DNA from: a virus
Direction: 5' to 3' (one strand)
Length of the DNA stretch: 24,733 bases
IMG/VR virus record: IMGVR_UViG_3300009159_000299
Span: 1 to 24,733 of that record
This document shows positions 671-24,358 of the stretch, piece after piece. Made by a program: the position numbers and the translations under genes. The notes beneath the pieces are model-generated. The model had not been told where the DNA came from, ran no database searches, and saw nothing but the letters and a program-made list of their open reading frames with translations. Each line of letters begins with the position of its first letter. Position 1 is the first letter of the stretch.

Positions 671-851
671 TTACTTCCTCTATTTTTCCATCACGATGAG
701 CTTTTATTAAAGCTGCTCGCATTGATTTAGTTTTTGATGATTCATTTTGTATTGAACTAAGTTGACGCTTTAAAGTATATCTTTGTTGAGTAGATAAATT
801 TGGTTTCCTTAACTCTCTTTGTATCATTTCAATATCTTCTGTTCTGCTCAT
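630..851 (-). CDS. Small basic helical protein with a predicted leaderless start
   Basis: It encodes 73 residues beginning MSRTEDIEMIQREL, highly charged and predicted helical throughout. I chose the ATG at 851 rather than an upstream TTG because the TTG would lie within the promoter. There is no Shine-Dalgarno sequence. Instead an extended -10 (TGTTATAAT) ends 6 nt before the ATG, so transcription should start at the ATG itself. The gene opens a new transcript just after the capsid terminator. Function unknown. Confidence 0.7.
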   Translation of the reverse strand: MSRTEDIEMIQRELRKPNLSTQQRYTLKRQLSSIQNESSKTKSMRAALIKAHRDGKIEEVNDIRDFISRRSNY

Positions 852-857
852 AAATTG

Positions 858-866
858 ATTATAACA
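858..866 (-). promoter_or_regulatory. Extended -10 promoter abutting an ATG
   Basis: The minus strand reads TGTTATAAT, a perfect extended -10. Six bases separate it from the ATG at 851, which places +1 on the start codon. A TTTACA about 15 nt upstream lies inside the preceding terminator hairpin and could act as a poor -35. Confidence 0.6.
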
Positions 867-867
867 C

Positions 868-891
868 AAAAGCCCCTCTGTAAAGAGGAGC
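868..891 (-). terminator. Rho-independent terminator after the capsid gene
   Basis: Read on the minus strand, an 8-bp stem (GCTCCTCT with AGAGGGGC, one G-U pair) closes a TTAC loop and is followed by TTTT. It lies about 20 nt past the capsid stop codon, so it ends or attenuates the scaffold-capsid transcript. Confidence 0.75.
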
Positions 892-913
892 TAATGTCTG
901 ATGCTTAATTAAA

Positions 914-1864
914 TTAAGCAGTTGCAGCGGTCTTGAGAGCAATTATCCAGCTAGAATTTAGAACCTTGCACACGTAGCTACCAGCCCAGGCGATAGTTGA
1001 ATATCTATCAGCAGGGTTACTGGTGTCACTTGAACCAGGAGTCTTAATGTAAAGCTTTGGAGCATCTGTTGCCAAGTCCATTACACCGAATGCGTCTTTG
1101 CCGTGAATGACATTGTCGTAAAGTGTAGCAGATGTAGCAGTAGCAGAAGCACCGTTGTTTGTAAGAATAAATCTTACTCCGAATAGTTCTCCAGCTTCAC
1201 CCATATATAGGTCTTTTACATCGCTGTAGGTCTTAGAATTTACCCAAGTTGAGTCACCGATTAGGTCGTACCAAGTGTAAGGTTGAATCTTACCTAGGAA
1301 GAAACCGTCATCGTATCTTGAAGCTGCGTTACCTTCTAGGGTACGTACAGCCTTTTTGATTTCTGCAGCATTTAGAACGCTTCCTGAAGCAACAGCACTA
1401 GCAGCGGTTACACCACCAGCATATTGTACAGTTGCATTTGCAGTTGCATTAATGACATCTCGAACTAAAGTATCTAGGGTTTCACCCATATTTTGTCCGA
1501 ATACTTCAATTTTTTCTTTGTTGTTTTGGTCTATTGAGATAGTGCTCAAGAATCGACCAATTTTTGCCGTACTTCCGTATTCCTTAATGGTTGCGGAAAT
1601 TGTAGAGGCAGTCAAATTTACTTCTGCAGGGTTATCACCTTCAGTCAAACCACCAGTTACTGCAGATACAGCAAGTGGGGTGTAACGAGTAAAGTTAACA
1701 GTTCTACCTTCACCAGCAGGGATAGTTTTCTTTTGTGCTCCCTGTTCGTGAATCAGACGTTTCATAGCTCGTGCAAGAAAAACTTTTTCATAGTAAGTAG
1801 AAACTTCGTAAGTTATTGTACTACCATTTCCAAGTCCTGCAGAGGTTGTTACTTGTGTGGCCAT
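914..1864 (-). CDS. Major capsid protein, N4-gp56 family
   Basis: This 316-residue protein forms the icosahedral shell. It resembles the N4-gp56 capsid family: an N-terminal GLGNGSTITYEVSTYYEKVF stretch, then KRLIHEQGAQKKTIP and VNFTRYTPLA, then an EYGSTAKIGRF segment. These are typical of HK97-fold capsids of this group. The start has an AAGGA ribosome binding site. The gene follows a putative scaffold gene with a 24-nt gap and is followed by a terminator, so scaffold and capsid form a strongly expressed pair. Codon choice looks less AT-rich than in neighbouring early genes, as expected for a highly expressed protein. Assignment is from family memory, not a search. Confidence 0.92.
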   Translation of the reverse strand: MATQVTTSAGLGNGSTITYEVSTYYEKVFLARAMKRLIHEQGAQKKTIPAGEGRTVNFTRYTPLAVSAVTGGLTEGDNPAEVNLTASTISATIKEYGSTAKIGRFLSTISIDQNNKEKIEVFGQNMGETLDTLVRDVINATANATVQYAGGVTAASAVASGSVLNAAEIKKAVRTLEGNAASRYDDGFFLGKIQPYTWYDLIGDSTWVNSKTYSDVKDLYMGEAGELFGVRFILTNNGASATATSATLYDNVIHGKDAFGVMDLATDAPKLYIKTPGSSDTSNPADRYSTIAWAGSYVCKVLNSSWIIALKTAATA

Positions 1865-1888
1865 TTTATTTTCCTTTTGTTAAAGATA

Positions 1889-2635
1889 CTACTTATTGAA
1901 ACCGAGTTGTTGTTCCATTTCGTCCAAAGACATATCGGAAAAATCTTTTTTACCAGAATCATTTGTAGTAGTATCTGGTTTTAGTGTAGTTTCAGCAGCA
2001 GCTTGAGCTACAGAAGCTTTAACATTGGCATCAGAACGATTAGATTGTCTTTTGGCGACATCCATAACGTCATTGACAATATCCTTCAGTCTTATCTCAG
2101 GATTCTTATTGCTGAATTTTTCGTACATTGAAGCAATTTTGTTGCTCAATGCAGGGTCATATTGATTCCCTTCGGCATTAAGTTCTGGATATTTTCTTTC
2201 TATATTCTCAACATCACGTTCAAAATTATCGGCACGGTCTTTTGCTGCCTGTTTTTGTTCAAACTGTTGTAGTTTGATATCAGCTATCATTTCGGCTTGA
2301 CTGGCTACTTGCTGTTGATATTGCTCAGCAGTTATCTCAGTGTCATACGAAAAGTTTGTAGGTTGGGCTGGAGCTGGTTGGTTGTAAAAATTTGTTGGTT
2401 GCTGAACTTGTTCAGACAATTCACGAATTTTGTTTGACATATTTGCAAAACGTTTTTCTTGACGTGGTGAACGTTTGCTTTCCTCTTCATAGTTAGTTGA
2501 TTCTGTATCACCCTCCACCCCTGCGTCATTAGAGACTTCAGTATCTACAGTATTAACTTCTTCTGTTGATTCTGTTTGTTCCAGACTGGGGGTGGTCTCA
2601 GTAGTTTCTTCTACTGGTAGTATGGTATCTTCCAT
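1889..2635 (-). CDS. Putative capsid scaffold protein
   Basis: It encodes 248 residues. The first 60 are very acidic (many E, T, D) and probably disordered. A long charged coiled-coil region covers about 65-190, with a Gln/Asn/Pro-rich stretch near 80-100, and the acidic tail ends FSDMSLDEMEQQLGFNK. This composition and the position directly before the major capsid gene are classic for scaffold proteins, which template procapsid assembly and then leave. The ATG at 2635 has a GGGAGAAG ribosome binding site. There is no protease signature, so it is unlikely to be a prohead protease. Confidence 0.8.
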   Translation of the reverse strand: MEDTILPVEETTETTPSLEQTESTEEVNTVDTEVSNDAGVEGDTESTNYEEESKRSPRQEKRFANMSNKIRELSEQVQQPTNFYNQPAPAQPTNFSYDTEITAEQYQQQVASQAEMIADIKLQQFEQKQAAKDRADNFERDVENIERKYPELNAEGNQYDPALSNKIASMYEKFSNKNPEIRLKDIVNDVMDVAKRQSNRSDANVKASVAQAAAETTLKPDTTTNDSGKKDFSDMSLDEMEQQLGFNK

Positions 2636-2700
2636 AACTTCTCCCTATTTTAGTTGACTGCCCACGTTCAGCTATTGCTCGGTTCTTGGCGACACCGTTT

Positions 2701-2719
2701 AGTAGATTGCAAATCTACT
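2701..2719 (-). promoter_or_regulatory. 5' hairpin in the scaffold-capsid mRNA leader
   Basis: A perfect 7-bp stem (AGTAGAT with ATCTACT) closes a 5-nt loop just downstream of the predicted transcription start at about 2723. The rest of the 88-nt leader (to 2635) has a CGGT/ACCG pairing and ends in a good ribosome binding site. The hairpin looks like a tRNA anticodon arm, but no other tRNA arm can be found around it. Confidence 0.5.
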
Positions 2720-2729
2720 TCTGGTATCT

Positions 2730-2757
2730 ATTATCATACTTTAAAATATTTTGTCAA
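2730..2757 (-). promoter_or_regulatory. Strong promoter for scaffold and capsid
   Basis: The minus strand has TTGACA at 2757-2752, a 16-nt spacer and GATAAT at 2735-2730. The -35 is embedded in the last codons of the upstream gene. It would give the scaffold-capsid pair its own transcript, with extra copies of capsid mRNA over the rest of the head module. Confidence 0.65.
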
Positions 2758-2971
2758 TAATCGGATTACCATTTTCGTGTATTCCCTTGAGAATAAGCCC
2801 TGGTTCTAAATAAAAGCTATGTTTAAAAGGACAAGATTCACAAGATACTTCTGTTCCTTGTTGAATCCAAGTGTGTCCCTGCATAGATGCTTTTGCATCT
2901 TTCCACATTGAATCAATTTGGGCAGAAGATAATTTTAGAACTTCTTCGGATGGTTCATTCTGTTGTTGCAT
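2741..2971 (-). CDS. Small CxxC protein of the head module, unknown
   Basis: It encodes 76 residues beginning MQQQNEPSEEV and contains SCESCPFKHSF, a CxxC plus His that could bind a metal. I took the ATG at 2971 over a TTG at 3001 because it gives a Met start with normal coupling. It overlaps the upstream gene by 17 nt. Its last codons form the -35 box of the scaffold promoter. Its small size and position between portal and scaffold do not define a role. Confidence 0.7.
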   Translation of the reverse strand: MQQQNEPSEEVLKLSSAQIDSMWKDAKASMQGHTWIQQGTEVSCESCPFKHSFYLEPGLILKGIHENGNPIIDKIF

Positions 2972-3269
2972 TGTTAATCTCGTTAGCTGTATTTTGTACA
3001 ATATTCAGAACTTGTGATAGTTCATCAGCTACAAGATTGGATACAATGAATTTTTGACCAATTTCTTCTAGGGTCAAAGTAGCAGTATCTACTCCATTCA
3101 TTTTTTTGTAGTATTCAATGCGTTCTTGCATTTGTTTTTCTATTTGCAACCAACCTGGGTGGTCTGCAAGATTAGCAATTTGTTTATCTTTTAATGTAGC
3201 CTCTTGGTGTTCTGGTGTGTTGTCAGGCAAAGAAACTTCTAGTCCTTCAGTTATTGCGTCTGTGTTCAT
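2955..3269 (-). CDS. Small acidic protein after the portal, unknown
   Basis: It encodes 104 residues, acidic and mostly helical, with a likely coiled coil around 40-60 (WLQIEKQMQERIEYYKKM). The ATG overlaps the portal stop as ATGA, so its translation depends on portal translation. Genes at this position in podovirus-like head operons are often small assembly factors, but I do not recognise this one. Confidence 0.78.
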   Translation of the reverse strand: MNTDAITEGLEVSLPDNTPEHQEATLKDKQIANLADHPGWLQIEKQMQERIEYYKKMNGVDTATLTLEEIGQKFIVSNLVADELSQVLNIVQNTANEINNATTE

Positions 3270-5200
3270 TGTTGTCCTCCAAATAATTGGTTAGCTATTC
3301 TTGCAATTTCTGGGTCTTGTATCTGAGGATTCATGGGAACTGCACCTTGTGGTGGCATAGGTTGTTGCATATCAGCACCTGGCATTTGAGGCATTGGTTG
3401 TTGCATAGATTGTTGCGGTGCTTGTGGTTCTGCCATAGCTGGTGGAGTAACATCTCCTCCTGCACCTCCTGCTATTTGTGGTGGCTGATTCATATTGCCT
3501 TGATTTTCCATTTCAGTGTTGTTGATTTCTTCTTGAGTCATACCAATAAGAATTTTGTCATACCCTTCAACACCTGAAGTAGAAAATATTTTCTTGATGT
3601 GTTCACCGACATTGTACTTGAGTCCATTCTTGGCAAGTTCTTGACTGAGTCCAGGTATCTTGGAAACTACTACTAACAGATTGGTAAGAGCTTCTGATTG
3701 GGCAACATCATCTTTTCGATTAGTTGAATTGGCATCAATGTAATATTTGTATTTAATATCACCGATATCATCTTTAGCAATAGTTAGTATTGCATAACTT
3801 CCAGATTCAGATTCTTTTAGAATTTCACTTACATCTGGGTGCATTTCTTTTATTAAATCAATTTCATCATCAAACAAATCAAGATTAATTGGTTTTGGTT
3901 GTTTAGTAGCTACTAAATTAACAAATCCATCATAAAGTTCTTCAACAGATTGCTCCATCATAAACCTATCCCAGTTATCACGGGTGTTTTCACGTGCTTG
4001 AAGTAGTTTAAGAGCTTGTGGAGTCTTACCGAAGCCTGGGTCTGAAGTAGAATCAGAACTTGCTGCAGTGTCAGTAGTACCATTTTGGTTAAGAATTGAA
4101 CCAATTAGGAACTGGTAGGTACTTTGGAAGGTAGAAAGTCCCTGTGGATTAGTGTTGTAAGGTCGAATTGAGTTAGGAATATTCTCTAACCAACGTGCTC
4201 CAGGACTGTATTTAACACTTGAAGCTACAATTCCGTTAGGATTCATAATAGTTGGTGGGAATACTGACATCTTGACACCGTCTAGGTACAGATTAATAAG
4301 TGAATCCATAGCATATTGTAGTGTTTTTCCTCTTTCAAAGTCACCTAGACCATAAATTGAGTCTACAAGTGGGAAACAATACTTCAAAACAATAGGAATC
4401 TTACCGTTTTTGTGTGGGTTAGCAATGTCTCTAATGATTTTATTCTCATAATCAGGACAAAACATAATCCAACGTCCATCAGAACCTGCTTCATATCTAG
4501 TAACAACCTTAACTTGCGAAGCTTTTCCTTTAGAACCTTGGCTTTTTTGGTCTCTATCGTTTTCTACATAGGACTCATCACGAGATTCTTTTTGCATTTT
4601 TGAACCTTCTTTGGCAGATTCAATAATATATTTCAATGCAGTCTTTTCCCAGTCGCCATTTTTAGCTTTGAGTTTAGTTTGCAACCATCTTACTGATACA
4701 TAGTTTACTACGTGACAGTAATCGGAGTCTTGCATAGTAAGTTTACCTTTTTGTGGTATCCAGTTACGAATTGGTATTAACCAGCAATCTGGTCCAACAT
4801 AATCATCGTCTAAACGGTAGTCGTACATCATTGGCATAACTCCATACACCATAGAGTATAAGTCCCACATTCTTAATTTCGTAAGGTGTGAAAATTGTGA
4901 GTTAGCATTAGGTTGAATATAACGCTGAAGAATAATATCCATTAAGGTAGATTTGCCTTTATCTTTAACGGACAAAGCCTTAACCATACCTGTTGGAAGT
5001 TGTCCCATTACTCGACCTGCCCGTTCCCATATAATAGTTGATAGACGGGAGTCTGTTACTTTTGATTTAAAGCTCATTGAATCTTCAACTTTAGAAATTA
5101 ACATTGATTCTTTTTCATCAAATGTATCAACTATAGTTTGAATAGCAGCTTTGTCTGTAGTATATTCATCGCCAATTTGTTTTATTTTATCTTTATCCAT
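3266..5200 (-). CDS. Portal protein
   Basis: This 644-residue protein would form the dodecameric DNA channel at one capsid vertex and dock the terminase. The evidence is its size, its position between terminase and scaffold/capsid, and its sequence character. An N-terminal helical region is followed by a mixed core (LRMWDLYSMVYGVMPMMYDY, then VTRYEAGSDGRWIMF), a helical wing and stem (QALKLLQARENTRDNW) and a Pro/Gln/Met-rich C-terminal tail of about 75 residues. The length is typical of podovirus-type portals rather than siphovirus ones. The start at 5200 has AAAGGAGA 5 nt upstream. The flexible tail may contact ejection proteins; that is inference. Confidence 0.85.
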   Translation of the reverse strand: MDKDKIKQIGDEYTTDKAAIQTIVDTFDEKESMLISKVEDSMSFKSKVTDSRLSTIIWERAGRVMGQLPTGMVKALSVKDKGKSTLMDIILQRYIQPNANSQFSHLTKLRMWDLYSMVYGVMPMMYDYRLDDDYVGPDCWLIPIRNWIPQKGKLTMQDSDYCHVVNYVSVRWLQTKLKAKNGDWEKTALKYIIESAKEGSKMQKESRDESYVENDRDQKSQGSKGKASQVKVVTRYEAGSDGRWIMFCPDYENKIIRDIANPHKNGKIPIVLKYCFPLVDSIYGLGDFERGKTLQYAMDSLINLYLDGVKMSVFPPTIMNPNGIVASSVKYSPGARWLENIPNSIRPYNTNPQGLSTFQSTYQFLIGSILNQNGTTDTAASSDSTSDPGFGKTPQALKLLQARENTRDNWDRFMMEQSVEELYDGFVNLVATKQPKPINLDLFDDEIDLIKEMHPDVSEILKESESGSYAILTIAKDDIGDIKYKYYIDANSTNRKDDVAQSEALTNLLVVVSKIPGLSQELAKNGLKYNVGEHIKKIFSTSGVEGYDKILIGMTQEEINNTEMENQGNMNQPPQIAGGAGGDVTPPAMAEPQAPQQSMQQPMPQMPGADMQQPMPPQGAVPMNPQIQDPEIARIANQLFGGQQ

Positions 5201-5245
5201 AATTCTCCTTTGTTAGAATCGTAGAGTCCCTCTCTTGTGATTATA

Positions 5246-5563
5246 TTAACTATACTTTTTATCTCTAGAATCGTCAATTTTATTATAATCTATCTGAGCA
5301 TTGTCTTGTTTTATTAACCGAGATACCTTTCCTTTGTTCAAAACTACTGTAAAGGACAAAGAACCTGAATATTTTTTTTCAGTTGCTTCTTTAATGACCT
5401 GCATAATGATTGCTGCTGCCTGAGCATTGTCTTTTGGTTTATGAGATTCAAAGGAGTGAACGATAACTTGGTGAGTATTTTTAGTGTGACGCTTAATGGT
5501 TACTTGAACATCACCATAGTCAACTGCTTCTATTAAGGCATTGATATCTTCGATGTAGGTCAT
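5246..5563 (-). CDS. Small protein between terminase and portal, unknown
   Basis: It encodes 105 residues with a mixed alpha/beta pattern: beta-like DVQVTIKRHT and HQVIVHSF, a helix around 48-60, then strand LSFTVVLNKGKVSRLI. The ATG overlaps the large terminase stop (ATGA), and a 45-nt gap precedes the portal gene. I see no catalytic motif and do not recognise the family. Confidence 0.78.
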   Translation of the reverse strand: MTYIEDINALIEAVDYGDVQVTIKRHTKNTHQVIVHSFESHKPKDNAQAAAIIMQVIKEATEKKYSGSLSFTVVLNKGKVSRLIKQDNAQIDYNKIDDSRDKKYS

Positions 5564-6909
5564 CTGTAGAATCCGTTATCAAATAAGTCTTCTTGTGGGA
5601 AGTCATAGGTTTTGTTGATATCAAACTGATAATACAAAGCAGCATAACGTAATGCATCTAAAGCGTGGTCATCTTTTTTCATTGGTTCTTCTTTTTCATT
5701 ACGGTTGGTGTTTTTACCTCTAGGGTAGCGATACTTTTCAAATTCTTCAATTAGATTAACACAGGCTGATGATATGAATAGTTTTGGCTTAGGTGGTCCG
5801 TGCAGCTGTTCACGAGGTATTAATTTTTCTTGAAGGATATTAATTCCTGCTGAGATATAATCTTTACGTTTGGTAACTGGTACACAGGGAATGTTTTGCT
5901 GATTAAGATTAGCAATGTGTTCTGAAGCTTGAGAGTCACCAATGTAGGATAGGATATTTTTACCAATAGATTTTTCTTTTATAATTAAAGCTAATTGATT
6001 AATGGTTCTTTTGCGTTCATAAATCTCATCATAGACCCACCAGTTCTGGTCGTAATCAATTAAGATATATAAAATTGCTGCAGGATTTTGGTAACCAAAG
6101 TCAATGCCAACTATGTGAGTTCCTGTAAGTGGTACTTTTTCTGGTTGGACTACGTGGATAGCTCGGTCAAATGTCTTATAAACTAGTCCTTCCATCTTCT
6201 TAAACTCAGCCATATACTCTTGAGCAAACTCGTCTGGAGTATTCTCAGACCTAATTCTATCTATTTCAGTTTTACTGATGACTGGATTGTCATATGGCGT
6301 GGCGTGTGAATAGAACCAGCTAGGACGGCCCTTAGTAAACTTCTGGGTAAAACCACCAGTCTCGGTCTTATCGTAGCCCTGGGCGTACATATAGAGGTCA
6401 TAGAAGTGATTAAACCCATTAGGGGTGCTAATAAACATAGCCCAGCCCTGAGTTGTTAGAAGCATCGGCTCAAAGACTAACTTCCAGTGTTCTGGTTCGT
6501 GGTAGGCGTACTCGTCAAAGACTAAACCATTAACTTCAGTACCACGCAGCGTGTTGGCATTGTCGGAACCTTTTAATTCAATCGTGGAGTTAGGTAACTT
6601 AGTATCGTGCTTGATACCGTTCTTTTCATCATCAATGTAATTTAGGGTGACTGTTAGGTCAACATTGTTAACATCTTTAATTAATTCTTGAGGAATCAAT
6701 GTTTTAATATATTGTTTCCAGTAAATATCCTTAGCTTGTTTATAAGTAGGAAGAACTATCCAATAGCGTCCTTGTTTACGTAATGCTTCATAAAGAGTGT
6801 ATTCCAAGGCAAACATTGATTTACCAGTACGTCTTCCCCAGTTCAGTATTTTAAACCTTGAAGGAGAATTATGTACGTCAGATTGTTTGGGGTGAGGACT
6901 ATATAACAT
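5560..6909 (-). CDS. terL: Terminase large subunit
   Basis: This 449-residue packaging motor cuts concatemeric DNA and pumps it into the procapsid. The ATPase half has Walker A GRRTGKS at 25-31 and a Walker B-like GLVFDEY. The RNase H-like nuclease half has the three acidic clusters GIDFGYQNPAA, YIGDSQASEH and DDHALDALRY. I chose the ATG at 6909 over one at 6930 because it overlaps the stop of the upstream regulator (TAATG) and has AAAGG just upstream. The next gene is coupled at its stop. All expected motifs are intact. Confidence 0.95.
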   Translation of the reverse strand: MLYSPHPKQSDVHNSPSRFKILNWGRRTGKSMFALEYTLYEALRKQGRYWIVLPTYKQAKDIYWKQYIKTLIPQELIKDVNNVDLTVTLNYIDDEKNGIKHDTKLPNSTIELKGSDNANTLRGTEVNGLVFDEYAYHEPEHWKLVFEPMLLTTQGWAMFISTPNGFNHFYDLYMYAQGYDKTETGGFTQKFTKGRPSWFYSHATPYDNPVISKTEIDRIRSENTPDEFAQEYMAEFKKMEGLVYKTFDRAIHVVQPEKVPLTGTHIVGIDFGYQNPAAILYILIDYDQNWWVYDEIYERKRTINQLALIIKEKSIGKNILSYIGDSQASEHIANLNQQNIPCVPVTKRKDYISAGINILQEKLIPREQLHGPPKPKLFISSACVNLIEEFEKYRYPRGKNTNRNEKEEPMKKDDHALDALRYAALYYQFDINKTYDFPQEDLFDNGFYR

Positions 6910-7124
6910 TAGCAACCTTTCTGCATACACTTAGTGCCTGTATAGAAATGACCTTTTCTGCAGACCTTAGATTTTTTTAATTGTTCTAGAATAACTTTTT
7001 TAGGAGTCTCCAATATTTTTTCAGGAGTCCCTTTAAGTGAATTAGATATAAACTCAGATTTATTTTCTATGGAGTCCCATAAGTCTTTGTCAGCGTCTCT
7101 AATGTAAATATTATATCGTGGCAT
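6909..7124 (-). CDS. Ribbon-helix-helix regulator with Cys-rich tail
   Basis: It encodes 71 residues beginning MPRYNIYIRDADKDLWDSIE. The N-terminus has the short strand plus two-helix pattern of Arc/MetJ-type ribbon-helix-helix DNA-binding proteins. The C-terminus (KVCRKGHFYTGTKCMQKGC) has three Cys and one His and may bind zinc. I chose the ATG at 7124 because the longer frame back to 7187 would run through operator repeats. There is no Shine-Dalgarno sequence; a TGC-TACAAT element ends 8 nt upstream. Palindromes surround the promoter, so it probably represses itself. It lies between the two terminase genes and is coupled to terL. Confidence 0.72.
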   Translation of the reverse strand: MPRYNIYIRDADKDLWDSIENKSEFISNSLKGTPEKILETPKKVILEQLKKSKVCRKGHFYTGTKCMQKGC

Positions 7125-7125
7125 A

Positions 7126-7166
7126 TACACACATTGTAGCATAGTGTGTGTAGTGTGTATACACAC
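7126..7166 (-). promoter_or_regulatory. Promoter with overlapping operator palindromes
   Basis: A perfect 14-bp palindrome GTGTGTATACACAC lies at 7153-7166, and an inverted pair TACACACA/TGTGTGTA at 7126-7133 and 7145-7152. Read on the minus strand, a -35-like TATACA (7161-7156), 17-nt spacer and extended TGC-TACAAT (7138-7133) sit inside these repeats. A repressor bound here would cover both promoter boxes. Confidence 0.6.
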
Positions 7167-7187
7167 ATCTTTATACTGGCCCCCCAA

Positions 7188-7325
7188 ATATTTTACTAGG
7201 GAGGTATTGTGAAAGAAAAACTGTGTACAGGTGAAGAAACAATATTTGATACATATATATGAGTAGTACGCCTATAGCCAAGAGCCCTATAAGGGGGATA
7301 TACCCCCCCCCGCCCCTATCTGTTA
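7188..7325. other. Noncoding gap with a GC-rich hairpin
   Basis: No convincing gene lies here. There is a GGGGG-ATATA-CCCCC hairpin at 7293-7307 that runs into nine consecutive C. This may slow or end transcripts coming from the small terminase gene, though no T-run follows on either strand. A 17-codon GTG frame at 7209 on the plus strand has a GGGAGG before it but looks accidental. Confidence 0.4.
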
Positions 7326-7784
7326 TTAATTTATTATATCAATAGGGGTATTGGCATTGCCTAGCTCAATCTTTACCACTTGTGCTACCTGCTTACGCTC
7401 AACCATATGACCATCTAGACGGGCTAGCAATTCAATTGCCTTGAGTTTGGTGTTAGTCTTATTAATACCATCGATATTACCCCTTATTACATCCGCTATG
7501 CTCTCTCTTATGTGTTCTAGTGTTATATTGCTTTTATTTGTATAAGCTTGCAACCACTTATTATTAATAGCGGGGCTTGCAATTTGATTGGCATAGTGTT
7601 TATTGTATCCCGCCTGTATAGCCGATTGATAGGCATTACCGAAAGTAGTACTTTCAGGGCTTATATATAATTGCATAAATAAATTTTGCTTGGGATTGGC
7701 TTGCCATTGATTACTTATAGCCCCCACTTTACGCTTGCTAGGTGCTACACCCTTATTTTTACCTGTATTTTTGCGGGCTTTCAT
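7326..7784 (-). CDS. terS: Terminase small subunit
   Basis: It encodes 152 residues that would recognise the packaging site and regulate TerL. A basic N-terminal tail precedes the family signature around residues 31-65: KQNLFMQLY, then AYQSAIQAGYNKHYANQIAS. This is the helix-turn-helix segment of Terminase_2-like small subunits. A helical oligomerisation region follows. The gene opens the head operon. Its ATG has no ribosome binding site; an extended -10 (TGGTATAAT) ends 7 nt upstream, so the mRNA should be leaderless. The regulator gene, not terL, follows directly. Confidence 0.85.
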   Translation of the reverse strand: MKARKNTGKNKGVAPSKRKVGAISNQWQANPKQNLFMQLYISPESTTFGNAYQSAIQAGYNKHYANQIASPAINNKWLQAYTNKSNITLEHIRESIADVIRGNIDGINKTNTKLKAIELLARLDGHMVERKQVAQVVKIELGNANTPIDIIN

Positions 7785-7791
7785 ACTCTTA

Positions 7792-7820
7792 ATTATACCA
7801 ATTTACACCTGATAATGCAA
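7792..7820 (-). promoter_or_regulatory. Head operon promoter, leaderless
   Basis: The minus strand has TTGCAT (7820-7815), a 17-nt spacer ending in TGG, and TATAAT (7797-7792). The terS ATG begins 7 nt later. It is back to back with the early promoter; only 18 bp separate the two -35 boxes, so one bound regulator could switch both. Confidence 0.6.
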
Positions 7821-7838
7821 TTATATTATGAAAAGTTA

Positions 7839-7867
7839 TTGACAATAGGTTTTTTATACGATACAAT
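7839..7867 (+). promoter_or_regulatory. Early promoter 1
   Basis: TTGACA (7839-7844), a 17-nt spacer and TACAAT (7862-7867), with TACGA just before the -10. It drives the first early operon and shares its architecture with promoters at 9643 and 13253. Confidence 0.8.
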
Positions 7868-7901
7868 GTATTTACCTTAAAAAAACGGGTACAAGGTACA
7901 A

Positions 7902-7959
7902 GCGGGGGCTAGATGATAGGGCTATAAGCAACATACGCCACAAGTTGCAAGCCCCCCGC
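7902..7959 (+). promoter_or_regulatory. Structured 5' leader of the first early mRNA
   Basis: A closing stem pairs GCGGGGGCT (7902-7910) with AGCCCCCCGC (7950-7959, one bulged C). Inside it GCAAC (7928-7932) pairs with GTTGC (7944-7948). A direct repeat GGTACAA lies just upstream. The first gene's ribosome binding site lies 25 nt downstream, so effects on initiation would be indirect. Function unknown. Confidence 0.5.
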
Positions 7960-7996
7960 CTTGATGATAAATATTAAAATAAAAAAAGGATTAAAG

Positions 7997-8146
7997 ATGA
8001 AAGTTTACAATAAAAAAGGTGTATTCATTACACGGGCTGAAAGGCTAAAGATTAAAGAACAAAAAGATATAAACATATTTAATATTATAATGTTTGTATG
8101 CTTAAATGCTTATTTAATAATCTGGTTTATAACAATAACGAATTGA
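7997..8146 (+). CDS. Small membrane protein, first early gene
   Basis: It encodes 49 residues: a basic N-terminal half (MKVYNKKGVFITRAERLKIK) and a hydrophobic helix at about 28-46 (IIMFVCLNAYLIIWFITI), so a C-tail-anchored topology is likely. I took the ATG at 7997 because AAAGGA lies 6 nt upstream; the earlier ATG at 7961 has none. As the first early product it may act on the host envelope, for example in superinfection exclusion, but that is a guess. Confidence 0.65.
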   Translation: MKVYNKKGVFITRAERLKIKEQKDINIFNIIMFVCLNAYLIIWFITITN

Positions 8147-8158
8147 AAGGGTAAAATA

Positions 8159-8710
8159 ATGAAAGTTGCTAAAGTAAAAATATATACTATAAAAGAATTA
8201 AGCCCTGATGCTCAACAAGTGGCCATCAATCAGTGGCTACAACACGATTATACAGATATTAATTATGTACTCGATGAATACAAAATCGAATTAGAAAGTT
8301 TTGGTTTTTATGATGTGGATATTAATTATACTGGTTTTTATTCACAAGGTGACGGGGCTAGTTTTACAGCGGGTATTGATATAATGAAGTTTTTAGCTAA
8401 AAATAAAAAATTAAAAGAATATAAAAAAATAATCAAAAACCTTGATGAGATAACTTTTAATATAATCAGGCATAATAATCATTATTACCACGAACACACC
8501 ACAAGTGTTGAGATTATGGATGCCTGGGATGAATACGATATTCAAGGTTTAGAAGATTATATTAATCAATGGGTTTTAGCTTTTAATATTGATATATATA
8601 AAGCACTACAAAAAGAATATGAATATCAAACATCTGATCAAACTATTATTTATGAGTTACTAGATAATGAGATATATTTTACAAAAAACGGGTTACAGTT
8701 TATTTATTAA
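8159..8710 (+). CDS. Conserved phage protein of unknown function (SQGDGASF type)
   Basis: It encodes 183 residues. The start MKVAKVKIYTIKELSPDAQQ and the segment GFYSQGDGASFTAGID match a widespread family of phage and plasmid hypothetical proteins. These open with 'ytf-ELs-eAQ-kA' and carry a 'fSGF-SQGDGasF' motif; they are sometimes labelled antitoxin-like without proof. It has no catalytic residues I can name. The ribosome binding site GAAAGGG is followed by AT-rich spacer and is repeated before the next gene, so the two genes share an initiation module. Confidence 0.8.
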   Translation: MKVAKVKIYTIKELSPDAQQVAINQWLQHDYTDINYVLDEYKIELESFGFYDVDINYTGFYSQGDGASFTAGIDIMKFLAKNKKLKEYKKIIKNLDEITFNIIRHNNHYYHEHTTSVEIMDAWDEYDIQGLEDYINQWVLAFNIDIYKALQKEYEYQTSDQTIIYELLDNEIYFTKNGLQFIY

Positions 8711-8733
8711 TAAAGCATTGAAAGGGTAAAAAA

Positions 8734-9282
8734 ATGACAATAACTATGAATAATATAAATGATATATTTGGGGCTAAAATTGCAAGCATTGATACGATGC
8801 AATATAAGGGCTATAAACTATTGAAAGAGTTTTTTATTGACAATAGCGGGTTTGGTAGTAGTAACGAACTTGCACTTACAAAAATACAATTTGAAAGTGA
8901 ATTACAGGCGTTTTTAGCGGGCTATGGCAAACCTGTAACCGCTAAAATTACCAGGTTTGGTCAATTCCAGGTATATTTGGGGCTATTTGCAAAAACAGGC
9001 CAAAAGATATCTAAAAAAATTGCAAACAATACGCTATTAATTAAGGATGATAATAAAAACATAATCAGGCTACACGATACAAACATATTAAGTGAAAGCG
9101 GGGGTGTAATAACTATAAATAGCGGGGGTTATCAAACAAACACTACAAAAAGCCGTATCAATGACTACTTGCCAAACGGGTATTATATATCGCAAAAAGA
9201 TTTTGTCTGGTATCTAAACACGCCCGAAAGCACAATTGATTTTGTGGATGGGATGACAATAACAGGCTATTTGAATATATAG
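8734..9282 (+). CDS. Conserved phage hypothetical protein
   Basis: It encodes 182 residues. Segments such as LLKEFFIDNSGFGSSNELAL, FGQFQVYLGLF, IRLHDTNIL and TKSRINDYLP recall a conserved early protein found in many tailed phages. I know of no experimentally assigned function. The composition suggests a compact alpha/beta protein. It is the last gene of the first early transcript and is followed within 15 nt by a strong terminator. Confidence 0.8.
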   Translation: MTITMNNINDIFGAKIASIDTMQYKGYKLLKEFFIDNSGFGSSNELALTKIQFESELQAFLAGYGKPVTAKITRFGQFQVYLGLFAKTGQKISKKIANNTLLIKDDNKNIIRLHDTNILSESGGVITINSGGYQTNTTKSRINDYLPNGYYISQKDFVWYLNTPESTIDFVDGMTITGYLNI

Positions 9283-9295
9283 CACAATTAAGGGG

Positions 9296-9321
9296 CGGGG
9301 CTTACTATAGCCCCGTTTTTT
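9296..9321 (+). terminator. Rho-independent terminator of the first early operon
   Basis: A 6-bp GC stem (CGGGGC with GCCCCG) closes an 8-nt loop and is followed by six T. It begins 14 nt after the stop codon at 9282. Confidence 0.85.
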
Positions 9322-9390
9322 ATATTGCTTTTTTATTGTGCGACATTGTGCTTTTTTTTATAGGGCTATATTGTACTACTTGCAATATAA

Positions 9391-9598
9391 AAACGCTTTA
9401 AACGGGCTTTAAACAGGCTACAATCAGGCTATAATCAGGCTATTTGATAGGTATTCATGTATGCATTGCTAGGATGTAGCAAGCTATTTTTATAATTATA
9501 AAAAACGCTTTTATTAATAACGCTTATAAAAGCACAAGGCAAGGGGGGCAAACAAAATAAATAAAAGGGGGTAAAATAAGCAAATAAAAGGGGGTAAA
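9391..9598. repeat. Iteron-like repeat region, candidate replication origin
   Basis: The gap 9283-9705 has no credible gene. Within it, GGC recurs at exactly 11-bp steps (9405, 9416, 9427, 9438) in units like AATCAGGCTAT. AACGCTT occurs three times. A perfect 18-bp palindrome TTTTTATAATTATAAAAA lies near 9484-9505, and AAATAAAAGGGGGTAAA is repeated at 9559-9575 and 9582-9598. Tandem short repeats, AT-rich dyads and G-rich direct repeats between two early operons suit an origin. An array of transcription-factor sites is the alternative. Confidence 0.5.
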
Positions 9599-9642
9599 CA
9601 GGGTTATTGACGGGGGCAATGAAAGTTTATATAAAAAAGGTA

Positions 9643-9671
9643 TTGACAATAGTTATACGATACGCTACAAT
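9643..9671 (+). promoter_or_regulatory. Early promoter 2
   Basis: TTGACA (9643-9648), a 17-nt spacer containing TACGATACG, and TACAAT (9666-9671). The short leader carries TTAAACGGG, which supplies the GGGGA ribosome binding site of the next gene. Confidence 0.8.
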
Positions 9672-9705
9672 GAAGTTACAAATTAATTAAACGGGGATAA
9701 AAAAA

Positions 9706-9915
9706 ATGATAACTACAATTTTAAGAGAAGGTGTATTAAATGACGATACATTGTATCAAGCCGAAAAAAATAAAGTGTTTAAGGGCAATTATATCGCTAT
9801 TGTAGAGTACTACACTTACGCTAGTGCCTGGCATAATAATAAACATATTAAAGGCTTTAGAAGTGAAAATAGCATGAATAAGTTTATAAATAAATTAAAG
9901 AAAGGGCAAAAATAA
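9706..9915 (+). CDS. Small early protein, unknown
   Basis: It encodes 69 residues with a central YIAIVEYYTYASAWHNNKHI segment and a basic C-terminus. It is the first gene of the second early transcript. The ribosome binding site is ACGGGGA, 8 nt before the ATG. No domain recognised. Its stop overlaps the next start (TAATG). Confidence 0.72.
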   Translation: MITTILREGVLNDDTLYQAEKNKVFKGNYIAIVEYYTYASAWHNNKHIKGFRSENSMNKFINKLKKGQK

Positions 9916-10088
9916 TGCAAGAGAAAAGGCAATATATATTAAGCGATAGGATGTTTAAAGTGTTATATGCAAATGACAAACCGAATTATAAACTAACTAC
10001 CGAACAATTTATGGAATTGTTATTTATCCAGGACGAATTGAGTTTGAACCCGCTATTAAAAAGAGAATTAAGAAAGGCAAAAAAATGA
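9915..10088 (+). CDS. Small early protein, unknown
   Basis: It encodes 57 residues beginning MQEKRQYILSDRMFKVLYAN and ending in a basic helix (LKRELRKAKK). It is coupled at both ends: its ATG overlaps the previous stop and its TGA overlaps the next ATG. An AAAGGG ribosome binding site precedes it. The tight packing supports it as a real gene. Function unknown. Confidence 0.68.
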   Translation: MQEKRQYILSDRMFKVLYANDKPNYKLTTEQFMELLFIQDELSLNPLLKRELRKAKK

Positions 10089-10303
10089 CAACTAAAGATT
10101 TGACAAATAATATCTATGATTTAGTAAAGGTAACGGCATTAAAAGATAAGCAAAATGACGATTGGGCGATATTGTCAAGACAATTCGCACAAGATAGCAG
10201 AAAACAAATGCACAAATACTTAAGCAATAAGGATATGAGCATAAGCAACAATGTTATCTATATAGGTAAAAAAATTAAAGTAACAATAGAGGAGGTAAAA
10301 TAA
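10085..10303 (+). CDS. Small early protein, unknown
   Basis: It encodes 72 residues: helical in the first two thirds, ending in strand-like NNVIYIGKKIKVTIEEVK. ATGA overlap with the preceding gene and TAATG overlap with the next place it in the coupled series. The ribosome binding site is GAAAGG. No motif recognised. Confidence 0.7.
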   Translation: MTTKDLTNNIYDLVKVTALKDKQNDDWAILSRQFAQDSRKQMHKYLSNKDMSISNNVIYIGKKIKVTIEEVK

Positions 10304-10545
10304 TGTATAAAATATACAGCTTGGAACGCAAAAATAATAGTGTTAATGGTAATCCAAAATATGAAATATATTTTAAAAACCTTGATGGTGAATTTGACCA
10401 CGCAACTACCGCAAGCGATTACGCTTTTTGTTATGGTATTACAAACGATATTTATAGCTTAAAAAACCCTAAAGTTATGGCAAAATTAGAGTTTAGCAAG
10501 GCGGGCAAAATAACAGATTTTAAAGTAATAAGAAAGGTAAAATAA
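10303..10545 (+). CDS. Small early protein, unknown
   Basis: It encodes 80 residues, probably beta-rich (MYKIYSLERKNN, PKYEIYFKNLDGEF, MAKLEFSKAGKITDFKVIRK). A strong GGAGG ribosome binding site lies before the ATG, inside the end of the previous gene. It is coupled to neighbours by single-base overlaps. No family recognised. Confidence 0.72.
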   Translation: MYKIYSLERKNNSVNGNPKYEIYFKNLDGEFDHATTASDYAFCYGITNDIYSLKNPKVMAKLEFSKAGKITDFKVIRKVK

Positions 10546-10727
10546 TGAATACAATCGACAGGCTAGTTATGGAGTATAGCGACAAAATGCTAGATATAAA
10601 TAATGCTGACGATATGGACTATGGCGACAAAACAGGTGCGTATATGGCGATAGCACGGCAACTTATAGCCGATGTAGCAACGAAAATATCAGATGACGAT
10701 TTAGACCTTGAGGACTTAATGCTATGA
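10545..10727 (+). CDS. Small acidic early protein, unknown
   Basis: It encodes 60 residues and is strongly acidic at both ends (DINNADDMDYGD; C-terminal SDDDLDLEDLML). Acidic tiny early proteins of phages often act as inhibitors or DNA mimics, but nothing here shows that. It starts with a TAATG overlap and ends with an ATGA overlap. Confidence 0.68.
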   Translation: MNTIDRLVMEYSDKMLDINNADDMDYGDKTGAYMAIARQLIADVATKISDDDLDLEDLML

Positions 10728-10789
10728 GCAACGAACAAAAAGCTTGGGCTAGACATTTTACAGGCACAATAACTAACTATTTTAATTAA
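10724..10789 (+). CDS. Very short early ORF, 21 residues
   Basis: It encodes MSNEQKAWARHFTGTITNYF plus one further Asn. The ATG overlaps the previous stop as ATGA, the same coupling used throughout this operon, and the next gene has its own ribosome binding site after a 13-nt gap. No separate Shine-Dalgarno sequence is visible. It could be a real micropeptide or a by-product of reinitiation. Confidence 0.4.
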   Translation: MSNEQKAWARHFTGTITNYFN

Positions 10790-10802
10790 AGGAGTAAATA
10801 AA

Positions 10803-10958
10803 ATGAAAAACTACACAATTTATTTTGAGGAGGCTTATAAAATAAAAATTAAAGCTAAAACAAGAGATGAAGCACTAGATATGTTTATGGACAACGAGTA
10901 TGACAACGCCAAATATCTGGAAATATCAGGGTACGAAATAATAGAGGAGCAAAAATGA
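10803..10958 (+). CDS. Small early protein of a common phage type
   Basis: It encodes 51 residues beginning MKNYTIYFEEAYKIKIKAKT and then TRDEALDMFMDNEYD. The strand-strand-helix pattern with '-ika-trdEAl-mf-' is common among tiny phage and plasmid proteins of unknown function. A GGAG ribosome binding site lies 9 nt before the ATG. Its stop overlaps the next ATG. Confidence 0.72.
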   Translation: MKNYTIYFEEAYKIKIKAKTRDEALDMFMDNEYDNAKYLEISGYEIIEEQK

Positions 10959-11227
10959 GTAAAAATAAAGACCTCAATGTACTAGAATCGTTTTTTAATA
11001 AAATAATTAAGGACTTGCCGATACCGATAGCAAAGGCTGGTACAGGAAGTATAGGTACAAGCATATATGGCTTTCATCTAATGGAAGTGGGAGACGCTGT
11101 AAAGTTTAAGGCAGAACATAGGCAAAACAAATATGTTTGTAGTGCTAGAAGCTATGGCAAAAAAGCAAATAAGAAGTTTACAGCTAGGTACATAAATGGC
11201 GAAACAATAATCTGGAGGGTTAAATAA
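10955..11227 (+). CDS. Small basic early protein, unknown
   Basis: It encodes 90 residues with a basic C-terminal half (FKAEHRQNKYVCSARSYGKK then FTARYINGETIIWRVK). The beta-rich pattern and charge would suit nucleic-acid binding, but no known fold is recognised. ATGA overlap upstream and TAATG overlap downstream; GAGGAG ribosome binding site in the end of the previous gene. Confidence 0.72.
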   Translation: MSKNKDLNVLESFFNKIIKDLPIPIAKAGTGSIGTSIYGFHLMEVGDAVKFKAEHRQNKYVCSARSYGKKANKKFTARYINGETIIWRVK

Positions 11228-11409
11228 TGGAACGAAAAGCAAAGACCGACAAAGAAGTAAAAGAAACATTACTAGCGATAGATATGTTTTTAGATATTGA
11301 GGAGTGGCTAGAATATACAAAAGCCGAACTTAATTGGGAAAGAATTAGCCTATCTGAGTTAATCGAGGTTGAAGCAGTACATAAAATAATTAAAAAGGAG
11401 CAAGAATAA
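11227..11409 (+). CDS. Small acidic helical early protein, unknown
   Basis: It encodes 60 residues, acidic and helical (LLAIDMFLDIEEWLEYTKAE). A GGAGG ribosome binding site precedes the coupled ATG. It ends with a TAATG overlap to the Zn-ribbon gene. Function unknown. Confidence 0.7.
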   Translation: MERKAKTDKEVKETLLAIDMFLDIEEWLEYTKAELNWERISLSELIEVEAVHKIIKKEQE

Positions 11410-11660
11410 TGAGTGGATTTTCAGACGACACAAACTGTCCTAACTGTAACAAATATGCTAACAGGTATAGCGACTACAAGCCGTTTGACCTAGTTAGCAT
11501 AGACTGTGCGTACTGTGGTTTTTATACCCATACAACAGTAAAGCAAATGGATCTAGAAGAATTAAACGACACAAGGGAACAGCAAGAATTAAAGCCATTG
11601 AAAAAATTACCAAAGTGGACGCTTGATGAGTACGGCTATTACGCAAAGGAGCAAGAATAA
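11409..11660 (+). CDS. Small Zn-ribbon-like protein
   Basis: It encodes 83 residues. Two pairs, CPNC (about residues 10-13) and CAYC (about 33-36), are spaced as in a treble-clef or zinc ribbon. Similar short Zn-ribbon proteins ('MSGF--l--CP-C' followed by 'kpfD-vs--C--CGF') are common in phages, with unknown roles. The C-terminal half is acidic and helical. It is coupled to both neighbours, with a GGAG ribosome binding site. Confidence 0.75.
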   Translation: MSGFSDDTNCPNCNKYANRYSDYKPFDLVSIDCAYCGFYTHTTVKQMDLEELNDTREQQELKPLKKLPKWTLDEYGYYAKEQE

Positions 11661-11788
11661 TGAAAACAATAAAAATAGTAAATAAGATTGTTGATGAATT
11701 ATGGAAAAATGGGCTAACTATTGACGGAGTAGATATATCAGATTATGAGCAAGCAATAACCAAAACAATAATAGAGGAGAAAAAATGA
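11660..11788 (+). CDS. Very small early protein, unknown
   Basis: It encodes 42 residues (MKTIKIVNKIVDELWKNGLT, then an acidic helix). Start coupled by TAATG and stop coupled by ATGA to the next gene. A GGAGCAAGAATA ribosome binding site lies inside the preceding gene. The packing makes it a likely gene. No family recognised. Confidence 0.65.
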   Translation: MKTIKIVNKIVDELWKNGLTIDGVDISDYEQAITKTIIEEKK

Positions 11789-12039
11789 AAAACTTACAAT
11801 TAAAAACAAGACCGATAGATAAACCCTATGAGATATGGAAAGGTCGGGTAATGATTGGTAGTGAAGTATTGAATATGGAGTGGCGAGTCCTAAAAAAGTG
11901 GCAAGTCGACGACGATAAACCTTATGCTCGCTGGTTCGTAGGAGCTAAAAGTGAAGCAACCTATGGCGAGTGGGAGTATGGCGATACCTATGTCAAAGAA
12001 ATTAAAACTTTTGGTACTAAAACTTTTTCCGACGCATAA
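11785..12039 (+). CDS. Conserved small phage protein, unknown function
   Basis: It encodes 84 residues. NPY-like start RPIDKPYEIWKG followed by MEWRVLKKWQVDDDKPYARW and GDTYVKEI matches a common phage hypothetical family with a 'W-WRVLKkyq----pyaRw' core. Beta-rich, role unknown. It is the last gene of the second early operon, and its 3' end overlaps the convergent gene at 12017 by 23 nt. I see no clear terminator for this transcript. Confidence 0.78.
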   Translation: MKNLQLKTRPIDKPYEIWKGRVMIGSEVLNMEWRVLKKWQVDDDKPYARWFVGAKSEATYGEWEYGDTYVKEIKTFGTKTFSDA

Positions 12040-12217
12040 TTTTATCGAACTTTTTGACAGGTAATTTTAAAGCTAAAGCAAGGTCAACAATATCATCATC
12101 TGTAATCTTGCTTGGCTTTTTTTTGTTAAACTTTTTGCTGTGGCTATTAAGATAGCTGGCGATTGAGCCTAGCTCGTCCTCGCCTATTGTCTCGTCAGAA
12201 AATACATATAACTTCAT
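12017..12217 (-). CDS. Small helical protein, copy 1 of a paralogous pair
   Basis: It encodes 66 residues beginning MKLYVFSDETIGEDELGSIA. The C-terminal half reads ITDDDIVDLALALKLPVKKF then DKIMRRKKF, which could be a helix-turn-helix. The gene at 12389 encodes the same layout (ITDDDIINLAIDLDISVGGI, IKIMRQKQL), so the two are paralogs. I chose the ATG at 12217, not 12247, because a TGGTATAAT element ends 7 nt before it and there is no Shine-Dalgarno sequence. That predicts a leaderless mRNA. A DNA-binding switch protein is a reasonable guess from its location between operons. Confidence 0.7.
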   Translation of the reverse strand: MKLYVFSDETIGEDELGSIASYLNSHSKKFNKKKPSKITDDDIVDLALALKLPVKKFDKIMRRKKF

Positions 12218-12224
12218 AAACACT

Positions 12225-12233
12225 ATTATACCA
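12225..12233 (-). promoter_or_regulatory. Extended -10 promoter fused to a terminator
   Basis: The minus strand reads TGGTATAAT directly after the six-T tract of the terminator at 12233-12258. The ATG at 12217 begins 7 nt after the -10. Confidence 0.62.
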
Positions 12234-12258
12234 AAAAACCCCCACACACAATAGGGGT
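12233..12258 (-). terminator. Terminator of candidate small RNA 1
   Basis: On the minus strand ACCCC pairs with GGGGT across an 11-nt loop and the T tract continues for five more bases. The stem is short but GC-rich. Its U-tract abuts the next promoter. Confidence 0.65.
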
Positions 12259-12330
12259 AGTTGGCTAATCACCTTAAAAAGTAACTAGTATTTTTGTTTT
12301 AAGTTTGTAAAGCCATACGACAAACTTTAC
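12235..12330 (-). ncRNA. Candidate small RNA 1, about 95 nt
   Basis: An extended -10 (TGCTATAAT, 12345-12337) predicts a start at 12330, and the terminator above ends the RNA near 12235. The RNA begins with two mutually exclusive hairpins. One is AAGTTTGT with ACAAACTT (8 bp, 12327-12320 and 12308-12301). The other is GTAAAG with CTTTAC (12330-12325 and 12312-12307). No ORF longer than a few codons has a ribosome binding site. It may be an antisense or regulatory RNA, or an unusually structured mRNA leader. No expression evidence exists here. Confidence 0.42.
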
Positions 12331-12336
12331 ATATAA

Positions 12337-12345
12337 ATTATAGCA
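12337..12345 (-). promoter_or_regulatory. Extended -10 promoter of candidate small RNA 1
   Basis: TGCTATAAT on the minus strand; the -35 region is poor (TTTACT-like, badly spaced), so activity would rest on the extended -10. Confidence 0.5.
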
Positions 12346-12388
12346 TAAAAGGAGTTGAGCTAAGTAAAATAATAGGGCAAGGGGGTAG

Positions 12389-12568
12389 TCAAAGTTGCTT
12401 TTGTCTCATAATTTTAATAATACCACCAACAGATATATCAAGGTCTATTGCTAGGTTGATAATATCATCATCCGTAATAGCCCTTGTTCTATTTTTATTT
12501 AACATATAAGTGATTAGCTCAAGCTCTAGTGGAGATAAATCACCTTCAAAGAATAAATGAGTACCCAT
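12389..12568 (-). CDS. Small helical protein, copy 2 of a paralogous pair
   Basis: It encodes 59 residues beginning MGTHLFFEGDLSPLELELIT. The C-terminal half matches the product at 12017 position by position: both have ITDDDI, a hydrophobic helix and a KIMR ending. The ATG at 12568 has no ribosome binding site. A TACAAT ends 6 nt before it, so this is another predicted leaderless gene. Its N-terminal half differs from copy 1, suggesting old duplication and divergence. Function unknown; possibly a small DNA-binding regulator. Confidence 0.65.
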   Translation of the reverse strand: MGTHLFFEGDLSPLELELITYMLNKNRTRAITDDDIINLAIDLDISVGGIIKIMRQKQL

Positions 12569-12574
12569 ACATCT

Positions 12575-12580
12575 ATTGTA
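12575..12580 (-). promoter_or_regulatory. Promoter -10 next to the ATG of paralog copy 2
   Basis: TACAAT on the minus strand, 6 nt before the ATG at 12568. A TCTACA about 18 nt upstream is a 4 of 6 match to the -35 consensus. Confidence 0.45.
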
Positions 12581-15737: not shown

Positions 15738-15910
15738 AACGCAACCCAGAACAATACAAGAAAGCTGTTGATACGACCAGGGCAAGACACGGAGAAGATT
15801 TTTATAGTAGGATAGCGAAACATGATAACCAATGGCTCAAGGGTAATTCGGACGCTATGCGTGAATTAGTTAATAAAAGATGGGCTAAACAAAGAAAGGG
15901 AAATAAGTAA
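15641..15910 (+). CDS. Small basic KGG-like protein, overlaps previous gene
   Basis: It encodes 89 residues. The region YKKAVDTTRARHGEDFYSRI is closely similar to NKAKYGEDFYKRIGATGGAK in the next gene, so the two are related. The basic C-terminus ends VNKRWAKQRKGNK. The only in-frame start is the ATG at 15641, 97 nt inside the upstream gene, with no good ribosome binding site. The first 30 residues may therefore have been added by overprinting. Its stop overlaps the next ATG. Confidence 0.6.
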   Translation: MQIHLHSNGESDNSVTVKVESDRTATQGRKSIKRNPEQYKKAVDTTRARHGEDFYSRIAKHDNQWLKGNSDAMRELVNKRWAKQRKGNK

Positions 15911-17853: not shown

Positions 17854-17869
17854 AATAAAATTATAACAT

Positions 17870-17903
17870 AAAAACCCCCAGCCGTAATAGCTAGGGGGTT
17901 TTT
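17870..17903. terminator. Bidirectional terminator between convergent operons
   Basis: AAAAACCCCC and GGGGGTTTTT flank a short AGC/GCT-stabilised loop. Both strands give a GC stem followed by five T, so it stops the early plus-strand transcript and the minus-strand transcript ending at 17906. Confidence 0.88.
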
Positions 17904-19837: not shown

Positions 19838-19863
19838 AAAAAAAAATAACAGCCGTTTGGCTG
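19838..19863 (-). terminator. Rho-independent terminator after the lysis module
   Basis: On the minus strand CAGCC pairs with GGCTG across a 4-nt loop and is followed by TTA and a run of nine T. Confidence 0.85.
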
Positions 19864-19899
19864 CTACTTTATTGGTCGCTTGCATGAATTTGCTTGCAT
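19864..19899 (-). CDS. Possible leaderless 11-residue ORF
   Basis: MQANSCKRPIK. The ATG lies 6 nt after a -10 element, and the stop is followed at once by the terminator, so the whole transcript would be about 62 nt. It may be a micropeptide gene or simply a small RNA that happens to begin with AUG. Two copies of GCTTGCATGA (19878-19887 and 19892-19901, plus-strand reading) span it. Confidence 0.3.
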   Translation of the reverse strand: MQANSCKRPIK

Positions 19900-19905
19900 G
19901 AGGTT

Positions 19906-19934
19906 ACTCTAGCATAGCCACTTTAATTTGTCAA
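19906..19934 (-). promoter_or_regulatory. Promoter of a 62-nt RNA at the end of the lysis module
   Basis: Minus strand TTGACA (19934-19929), a 17-nt spacer ending TGC, TAGAGT (19911-19906). The -35 overlaps the stop codon of the transglycosylase gene. The layout equals that of candidate small RNA 2. Confidence 0.58.
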
Positions 19935-23487: not shown

Positions 23488-23495
23488 AATATCTC

Positions 23496-24350: not shown

Positions 24351-24358
24351 TACTACTC

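Follow-up and report, generated by a model that had tools for sequence, protein, structure and literature searches.

The DNA analysed here, referred to as the window, is the whole of IMG/VR record IMGVR_UViG_3300009159_000299, 24,733 bases from an uncultured tailed phage for which no near relative was found among deposited phages. On its minus strand, five genes begin at an ATG that lies only 6-8 nt downstream of a promoter −10 element (Table 1), and one of them encodes the terminase small subunit (TerS). The layout can be read directly in the sequence: TGTTATAAT-caattt-ATG at 851, TGGTATAAT-taagagt-ATG at 7784, TGGTATAAT-agtgttt-ATG at 12217, TACAAT-agatgt-ATG at 12568 and TGCTACAAT-gtgtgtat-ATG at 7124, with spacers of 6, 7, 7, 6 and 8 nt, respectively. 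A TG is present one base before the −10 at 851, 7784, 12217 and 7124 and is missing at 12568. The core of a Shine-Dalgarno sequence (SD) is absent from the 18 nt upstream of all five starts, and most other starts of the window, on both strands, carry one. These are the four starts, and the fifth at 8 nt, that an initial inspection of the letters alone (the sequence-only reading) had singled out. Among 44 curated starts, TANAAT was found five times at a spacing of 6-8 nt, while all other upstream positions together gave 11 occurrences (binomial p ~0.0014); over all ATGs, the corresponding rate was 0.9% in four phage sequences and 1.5% in the window. No −35-bearing promoter was found at 851, 7784 or 12217 among the matches listed, and 7124 has a weak TATACA. 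Scans of the window for tRNAs and Rfam families gave no matches.

Table 1. Genes, promoter elements and terminators at the close −10/ATG starts of the window
Feature	Position	Strand	Remarks
orf851, 73 amino acids	630..851	-	Leaderless start predicted, spacer 6 nt (N6); N6 also in the orthologs of 8 other phage contigs
Extended −10 TGTTATAAT	858..866	-	6 nt before ATG 851; no change in TATAAT, TG or spacing among 9 sequences
Intrinsic terminator of capsid-gene unit	871..892	-	Directly upstream of orf851 −10
TerS (terminase small subunit), predicted leaderless start	7326..7784	-	Pfam Terminase_2 6e-8, phrog_51
Extended −10 TGGTATAAT	7792..7800	-	7 nt before ATG 7784
orf7124, small protein	6912..7124	-	Two N-terminal helices, invariant C-terminal C/H motif
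Extended −10 TGCTACAAT	7133..7141	-	8 nt before ATG 7124
GTGTGTATACACAC inverted repeat, candidate operator	7143..7167	-	Adjoins orf7124 −10; L005, L006 and L007 have palindromes at this position
orf12217, 66 amino acids, predicted leaderless start	12017..12217	-	Paralog of orf12568
Extended −10 TGGTATAAT	12225..12233	-	7 nt before ATG 12217
Intrinsic terminator	12238..12258	-	Directly upstream of orf12217 −10
orf12568, 59 amino acids, probable leaderless start	12389..12568	-	TACAAT-N6; weak −35 TCTACA, 17-nt spacer
−10 TACAAT	12575..12580	-	6 nt before ATG 12568
Not leaderless: TTGACA-17-TAGAGT promoter, 11-codon open reading frame (ATG 19899) and terminator	19843..19934	-	Precedes metallophosphoesterase gene

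Genes and transcription units behind the close −10 elements

TerS is the first gene of the packaging and structural run, and orf851 is the first gene past the terminator of the major capsid protein (MCP) gene. At 851 and at 12217 the −10 follows immediately on an intrinsic terminator, which indicates that one unit ends and another begins within ~40 nt. The sequence-only reading had opposed these minus-strand starts to plus-strand genes with good ribosome binding sites. This opposition does not hold, because the table of SDs shows good ones at most internal minus-strand genes as well (for example at 3269, 5200, 13149, 21424, 22374, 23487 and 24350), and the idea of a strand-specific expression class was rejected. 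The real contrast is between the genes located directly behind these −10 promoters and all the others. The plus-strand units use a different, −35-bearing type of promoter, TTGACA-17-TACAAT, at 7839, 9643 and 13253, followed by leaders that carry an SD. The three promoters are closely similar, with the core ACGATACAAT at 7839 and 13253 and the variant ACGCTACAAT at 9643.

A selective use of the layout for the terminase and small regulators had also been proposed. In the nearest complete relative, contig G425:C113, it heads TerS and open reading frames (ORFs) of 74, 149 and 336 amino acids; the layout is therefore not confined to those two classes of genes, and the chromosomes described below carry it at housekeeping genes. 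As for the small proteins themselves, orf851 is predicted to be all-helical, with four helices (pLDDT 79). The N-terminal helices of orf7124 are predicted to be ribbon-helix-helix-like, and its C-terminus contains the motif C-x-KGH-x5-KCMQKGC, which is kept in six relatives and is perhaps metal-binding; the protein had no Pfam match and a fold search against the PDB returned none. Palindromes flank the −10 region of this gene in the window and in L005, L006 and L007, and are thus consistent with an autoregulated promoter. Repeats resembling ACTCCTnnnAAAATATT are located at 7012-7028 and 7187-7203 on the minus strand, within and upstream of orf7124, between TerS and the gene of the terminase large subunit (TerL). 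They also occur in L005, L006 and L007 and represent a possible packaging site.

A sixth candidate, the ATG at 19899, kept its spacing (TAGAGT, 6 nt) and failed as a gene start: its ORF of 11 codons runs into a terminator (19870-19843), and it was rejected as a leaderless gene. The corresponding promoter of L011 lacks an ATG at this spacing, and the metallophosphoesterase gene of the window starts at a separate ATG, 19783, preceded by GGAGG. The minus-strand interval 19843-19934 is the promoter and attenuator-like leader of this gene, and a comparable promoter and hairpin precede the metallophosphoesterase homolog of L011.

Conservation of the spacing in related phages

Relatives of the window phage were recruited through TerL and MCP. 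In those carrying orf851, the gene is positioned just after the capsid gene, and nine versions could be compared (window, L004, L008, L009, L074, L075, L076, L086 and L087). The proteins of the seven aligned relatives are 56-97% identical to that of the window. In all nine versions, the TG, the TATAAT, the 6-nt length of the spacer and the ATG are invariant, and most spacer bases vary. The terminator upstream differs in sequence in the relatives and keeps its stem through changes on both sides. For TerS, the layout is kept in six out of seven sequences, with spacers of 7 nt in the window, 6 nt in L003, L011 (where the hexamer is TACAAT), G425:C113 and G434:C379, and 7 nt in contig C20, whose promoter is TTGACA-17-AATAAT. 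Loss of the spacing in related phages had been named beforehand as the outcome that would speak against leaderless starts; for both genes the spacing turned out to be conserved.

The distances between TATAAT and the ATG of ORFs of at least 40 codons were then compiled as histograms. In the phage family the distances peak at 6 nt, with 11 sites versus ~1 per other distance; a peak at 6-8 nt had been named by the sequence-only reading as support for its view. Once the copies identical to the window were removed from the family set, the enrichment at 6-8 nt was 6.2-fold (p ~5e-6), a p-value that overstates its strength because orthologs share ancestry and are not independent. Phages with capsid proteins ~47-57% identical showed a weaker peak (2.5-fold), and those sharing only a distant terminase showed none (0.7-fold at 6-8 nt). 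A stronger argument than the p-values is the constancy of hexamer and length amid changing surroundings. Whole-genome counts of TATAATN6ATG and TATAATN6-8ATG against the reversed pattern were set aside as non-discriminating because Dependentiae give a similar twofold excess, and the argument uses only the histograms of individual distances before ORF starts.

Probable leaderless messages and alternative explanations

Leaderless transcripts are the natural reading of the conserved distance between −10 and ATG, and it is highly probable that extended −10 promoters express the first genes of these transcription units from leaderless mRNAs; transcription start, mode of translation and host are what we infer. 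Since 6-8 nt separate the −10 (TGnTATAAT or TGnTACAAT; TACAAT without TG at 12568) from the ATG at the five genes, RNA polymerase would start at the A of the ATG or no more than 1-2 nt from it. The ribosome of the host would then recognise a 5'-terminal AUG in place of an SD. The five genes are the first ones behind their promoters, and genes further down the same runs use SDs. The −10 at 851 and 12217, together with the terminator just before it, would form a compact stop-and-restart module, which at 851 would keep the transcript of the capsid gene apart from the genes that follow.

Several observations weigh against this interpretation, in addition to the shared ancestry behind the family p-values. 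The −10 of TerS sits 34 nt from the ATG in L007, and C20 has only AATAAT as the −10 of this gene. The spacing at orf7124 varies from 8 nt in the window to 6 nt in L007 (TGTTATAAT-N6) and L005 (TGTTAATAT-N6), and L006 shows no clear −10 there. Orthologs of orf12568 in which its spacing could be compared were not found.

One alternative is that the promoters are real and that translation begins at in-frame TTG, GTG or ATG codons further upstream, with the G-rich 3' arm of the terminator acting as SD and the −10 lying inside a coding sequence reached by readthrough. A TTG at 869, in frame with orf851 and behind GAGGGG, would serve for this purpose in the window, and in L087 an ATG in frame with the gene precedes the −10. 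However, an in-frame TGA just before the −10 rules out upstream starts for orf851 of L086 and TerS of L003, the TerS and orf12568 ORFs of the window have no upstream start codon, the conservation of the proteins begins at the ATG and the proposed SD would be locked inside the terminator hairpin. Such upstream starts are, hence, improbable. Equally hard to sustain is the proposal that the main transcripts come from promoters further upstream and have ordinary leaders, the near −10 elements being secondary or regulator sites. A second TATAAT (7825) located 35 nt before TerS, the 34-nt distance in L007 and the palindromic repeats overlapping the orf7124 promoter would fit with it, but the upstream TATAAT of TerS has no well-placed −35, 851 and 12217 are cut off from upstream transcription by a terminator and leaders of ordinary length would still be without an SD. 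Chance is the least credible explanation: although AT-rich upstream regions would be expected to yield −10-like hexamers near ATGs from which matches are then selected (the window has 37% G+C and ~50 occurrences of TATAAT on the two strands together, and promoter-like matches over most of it are not above shuffles, 78 vs 72), and although chance could account for orf12568 taken alone, it does not explain a peak at a single distance on a flat background across diverged relatives, the lack of a peak in phages with a distant TerL or, in orf851, a hexamer and a length that are invariant beside a variable spacer, hexamer and spacing being conserved in diverged relatives for TerS as well.

Patescibacteria as the likely host group

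The sequence-only reading had regarded the layout as a clue to the host. Relatives of the MCP at 70% identity were found on a contig of a metagenome-assembled genome (MAG) titled Patescibacteria (G001) and on C20, a 40.5-kb contig of MAG G002. A search of the class of G001 added relatives of TerL at 48-50% identity in two bins, G425 and G434; the G425 contig, C113, is 40,378 bp long with a 127-bp terminal repeat. A DNA search of 393 genomes of the class for CRISPR-spacer or prophage matches returned mostly short matches or matches to a KGG-like gene, the useful ones being to the terminase in G425 and G434 and to the portal in G730. No prophage junction was seen.

The same layout is observed in Patescibacteria chromosomes. 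In 448 kb of chromosomal sequence, TATAAT is enriched 4.4-fold at 6-11 nt before ORFs compared with positions further away (p ~9e-14). On a slightly different chromosome set that includes G425, TGn precedes 32 of 76 such close sites (42%) versus 56 of 592 other TATAATs (9%; p ~1e-11). The genes behind the layout encode, in G425, YchF, class-II (Ala-type) and Trp/Tyr-type tRNA synthetases, PurD, EF-P and an ABC transporter, and in G001 a class-II tRNA synthetase, adenylate kinase and YchF. The chromosome of G425 has 7, 6 and 1 sites at spacings of 6, 7 and 8 nt, with a mode of 6-7 nt like that of C113 and the window. In G001, by contrast, the spacing is 7-11 nt with the mode at 9 nt and no site at 6 nt; the agreement with G425 is no specific proof of a host. 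As controls, Dependentiae showed no peak and a Chloroflexi MAG a weak one, whereas the 50 kb of E. coli examined contained zero sites and is no real control because it gave nothing to count.

Because the chromosomes that share the layout belong to the group whose bins hold the relatives, the clue to the host stands in part, and the window phage most likely infects Patescibacteria. Other results weigh against this assignment. Assigning hosts by bins is fallible and binning errors are likely in part; the spacing of the G001 chromosome does not match the 6 nt of the phage contig binned with it; and tetranucleotide usage does not single out Patescibacteria. The rpoB gene of G002 (C11:87077-88228) contains 12 in-frame TGA codons, as in Patescibacteria using genetic code 25, whereas C20 (loci L160 and L161) reads TGA as stop. 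This conflict of genetic codes makes G002 unlikely as the host of C20. The window and its relatives treat TGA as stop, unlike what is expected of phages of code-25 lineages (Absconditabacteria/Gracilibacteria), which would read it as glycine. The layout looks like an ordinary expression style in the likely host group. A broader proposal can be put forward only tentatively, and seems at present rather doubtful: Patescibacteria in general might start many units leaderless from TGnTATAAT at a lineage-specific spacing (6-7 nt in one case, 7-11 nt in another), which their phages would copy, making it a host-range signal.

In phage lambda, the cI message transcribed from PRM is leaderless. The parallel is a phage regulator whose message has no leader, and orf7124 may likewise regulate itself at the overlapping palindrome; the lambda case concerns one repressor in E. 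coli, whereas in the window phage several units, including packaging genes, would be involved. Lambda has been cited as the first leaderless case (PMC3160421). Leaderless genes are widespread in bacteria and exceed 20% of the genes in Actinobacteria and Deinococcus-Thermus; bacterial leaderless (TA-led) genes have a TANNNT signal ~12 bp before the start and no SD (Zheng et al., 2011; PMC3160421), and thus share with the window a −10-like element near the start codon. Leaderless promoters have also been predicted in Cluster O mycobacteriophages (PMC4351075), which have an actinobacterial host and SigA-type promoters, whereas the window has mostly extended TGn −10 elements, at TerS and at the gene after the capsid gene among others, and a probable Patescibacteria host. 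The tailed phage of Patescibacteria RSA-ATP1 (~39-40 kb; PMC13059738) has a size similar to that of C113 and C20, the window itself being a fragment, but it needs code 25 (UGA = Gly) and differs in this from the window and its relatives. The literature searched yielded no account of leaderless genes for Patescibacteria or the phages that infect them. Leaderless phage genes were already known from lambda and predicted in Cluster O; the occurrence of the layout in Patescibacteria chromosomes offers the more interesting line to follow. The analysis adds a conserved set of putative leaderless genes in an uncultured phage group and suggests that leaderless expression is routine in Patescibacteria, a large phylum of which very few members have been cultured. 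Gene callers that expect an SD may misplace starts in Patescibacteria, and the spacing between −10 and ATG could help in assigning phages to hosts.

Three further regions of the window deserve mention. The minus-strand interval 17763-17897 comprises a terminator, TGTTATAAT, an ATG with only two codons and a second terminator ~90 nt on, and possibly specifies a small RNA running convergently to the HNH gene of the plus strand. A small protein gene on the plus strand (15910-16185) matches stretches of many Patescibacteria genomes over 70-150 bases, with a DNA identity of ~70-77%, and is possibly host-derived. Finally, tandem paralogs of a tail protein are located at 22621-24637 on the minus strand; the two complete copies share the start MAAxNTDKFKKAxRxFSTT, and both have a TATAAT 18 nt from an ATG led by an SD.

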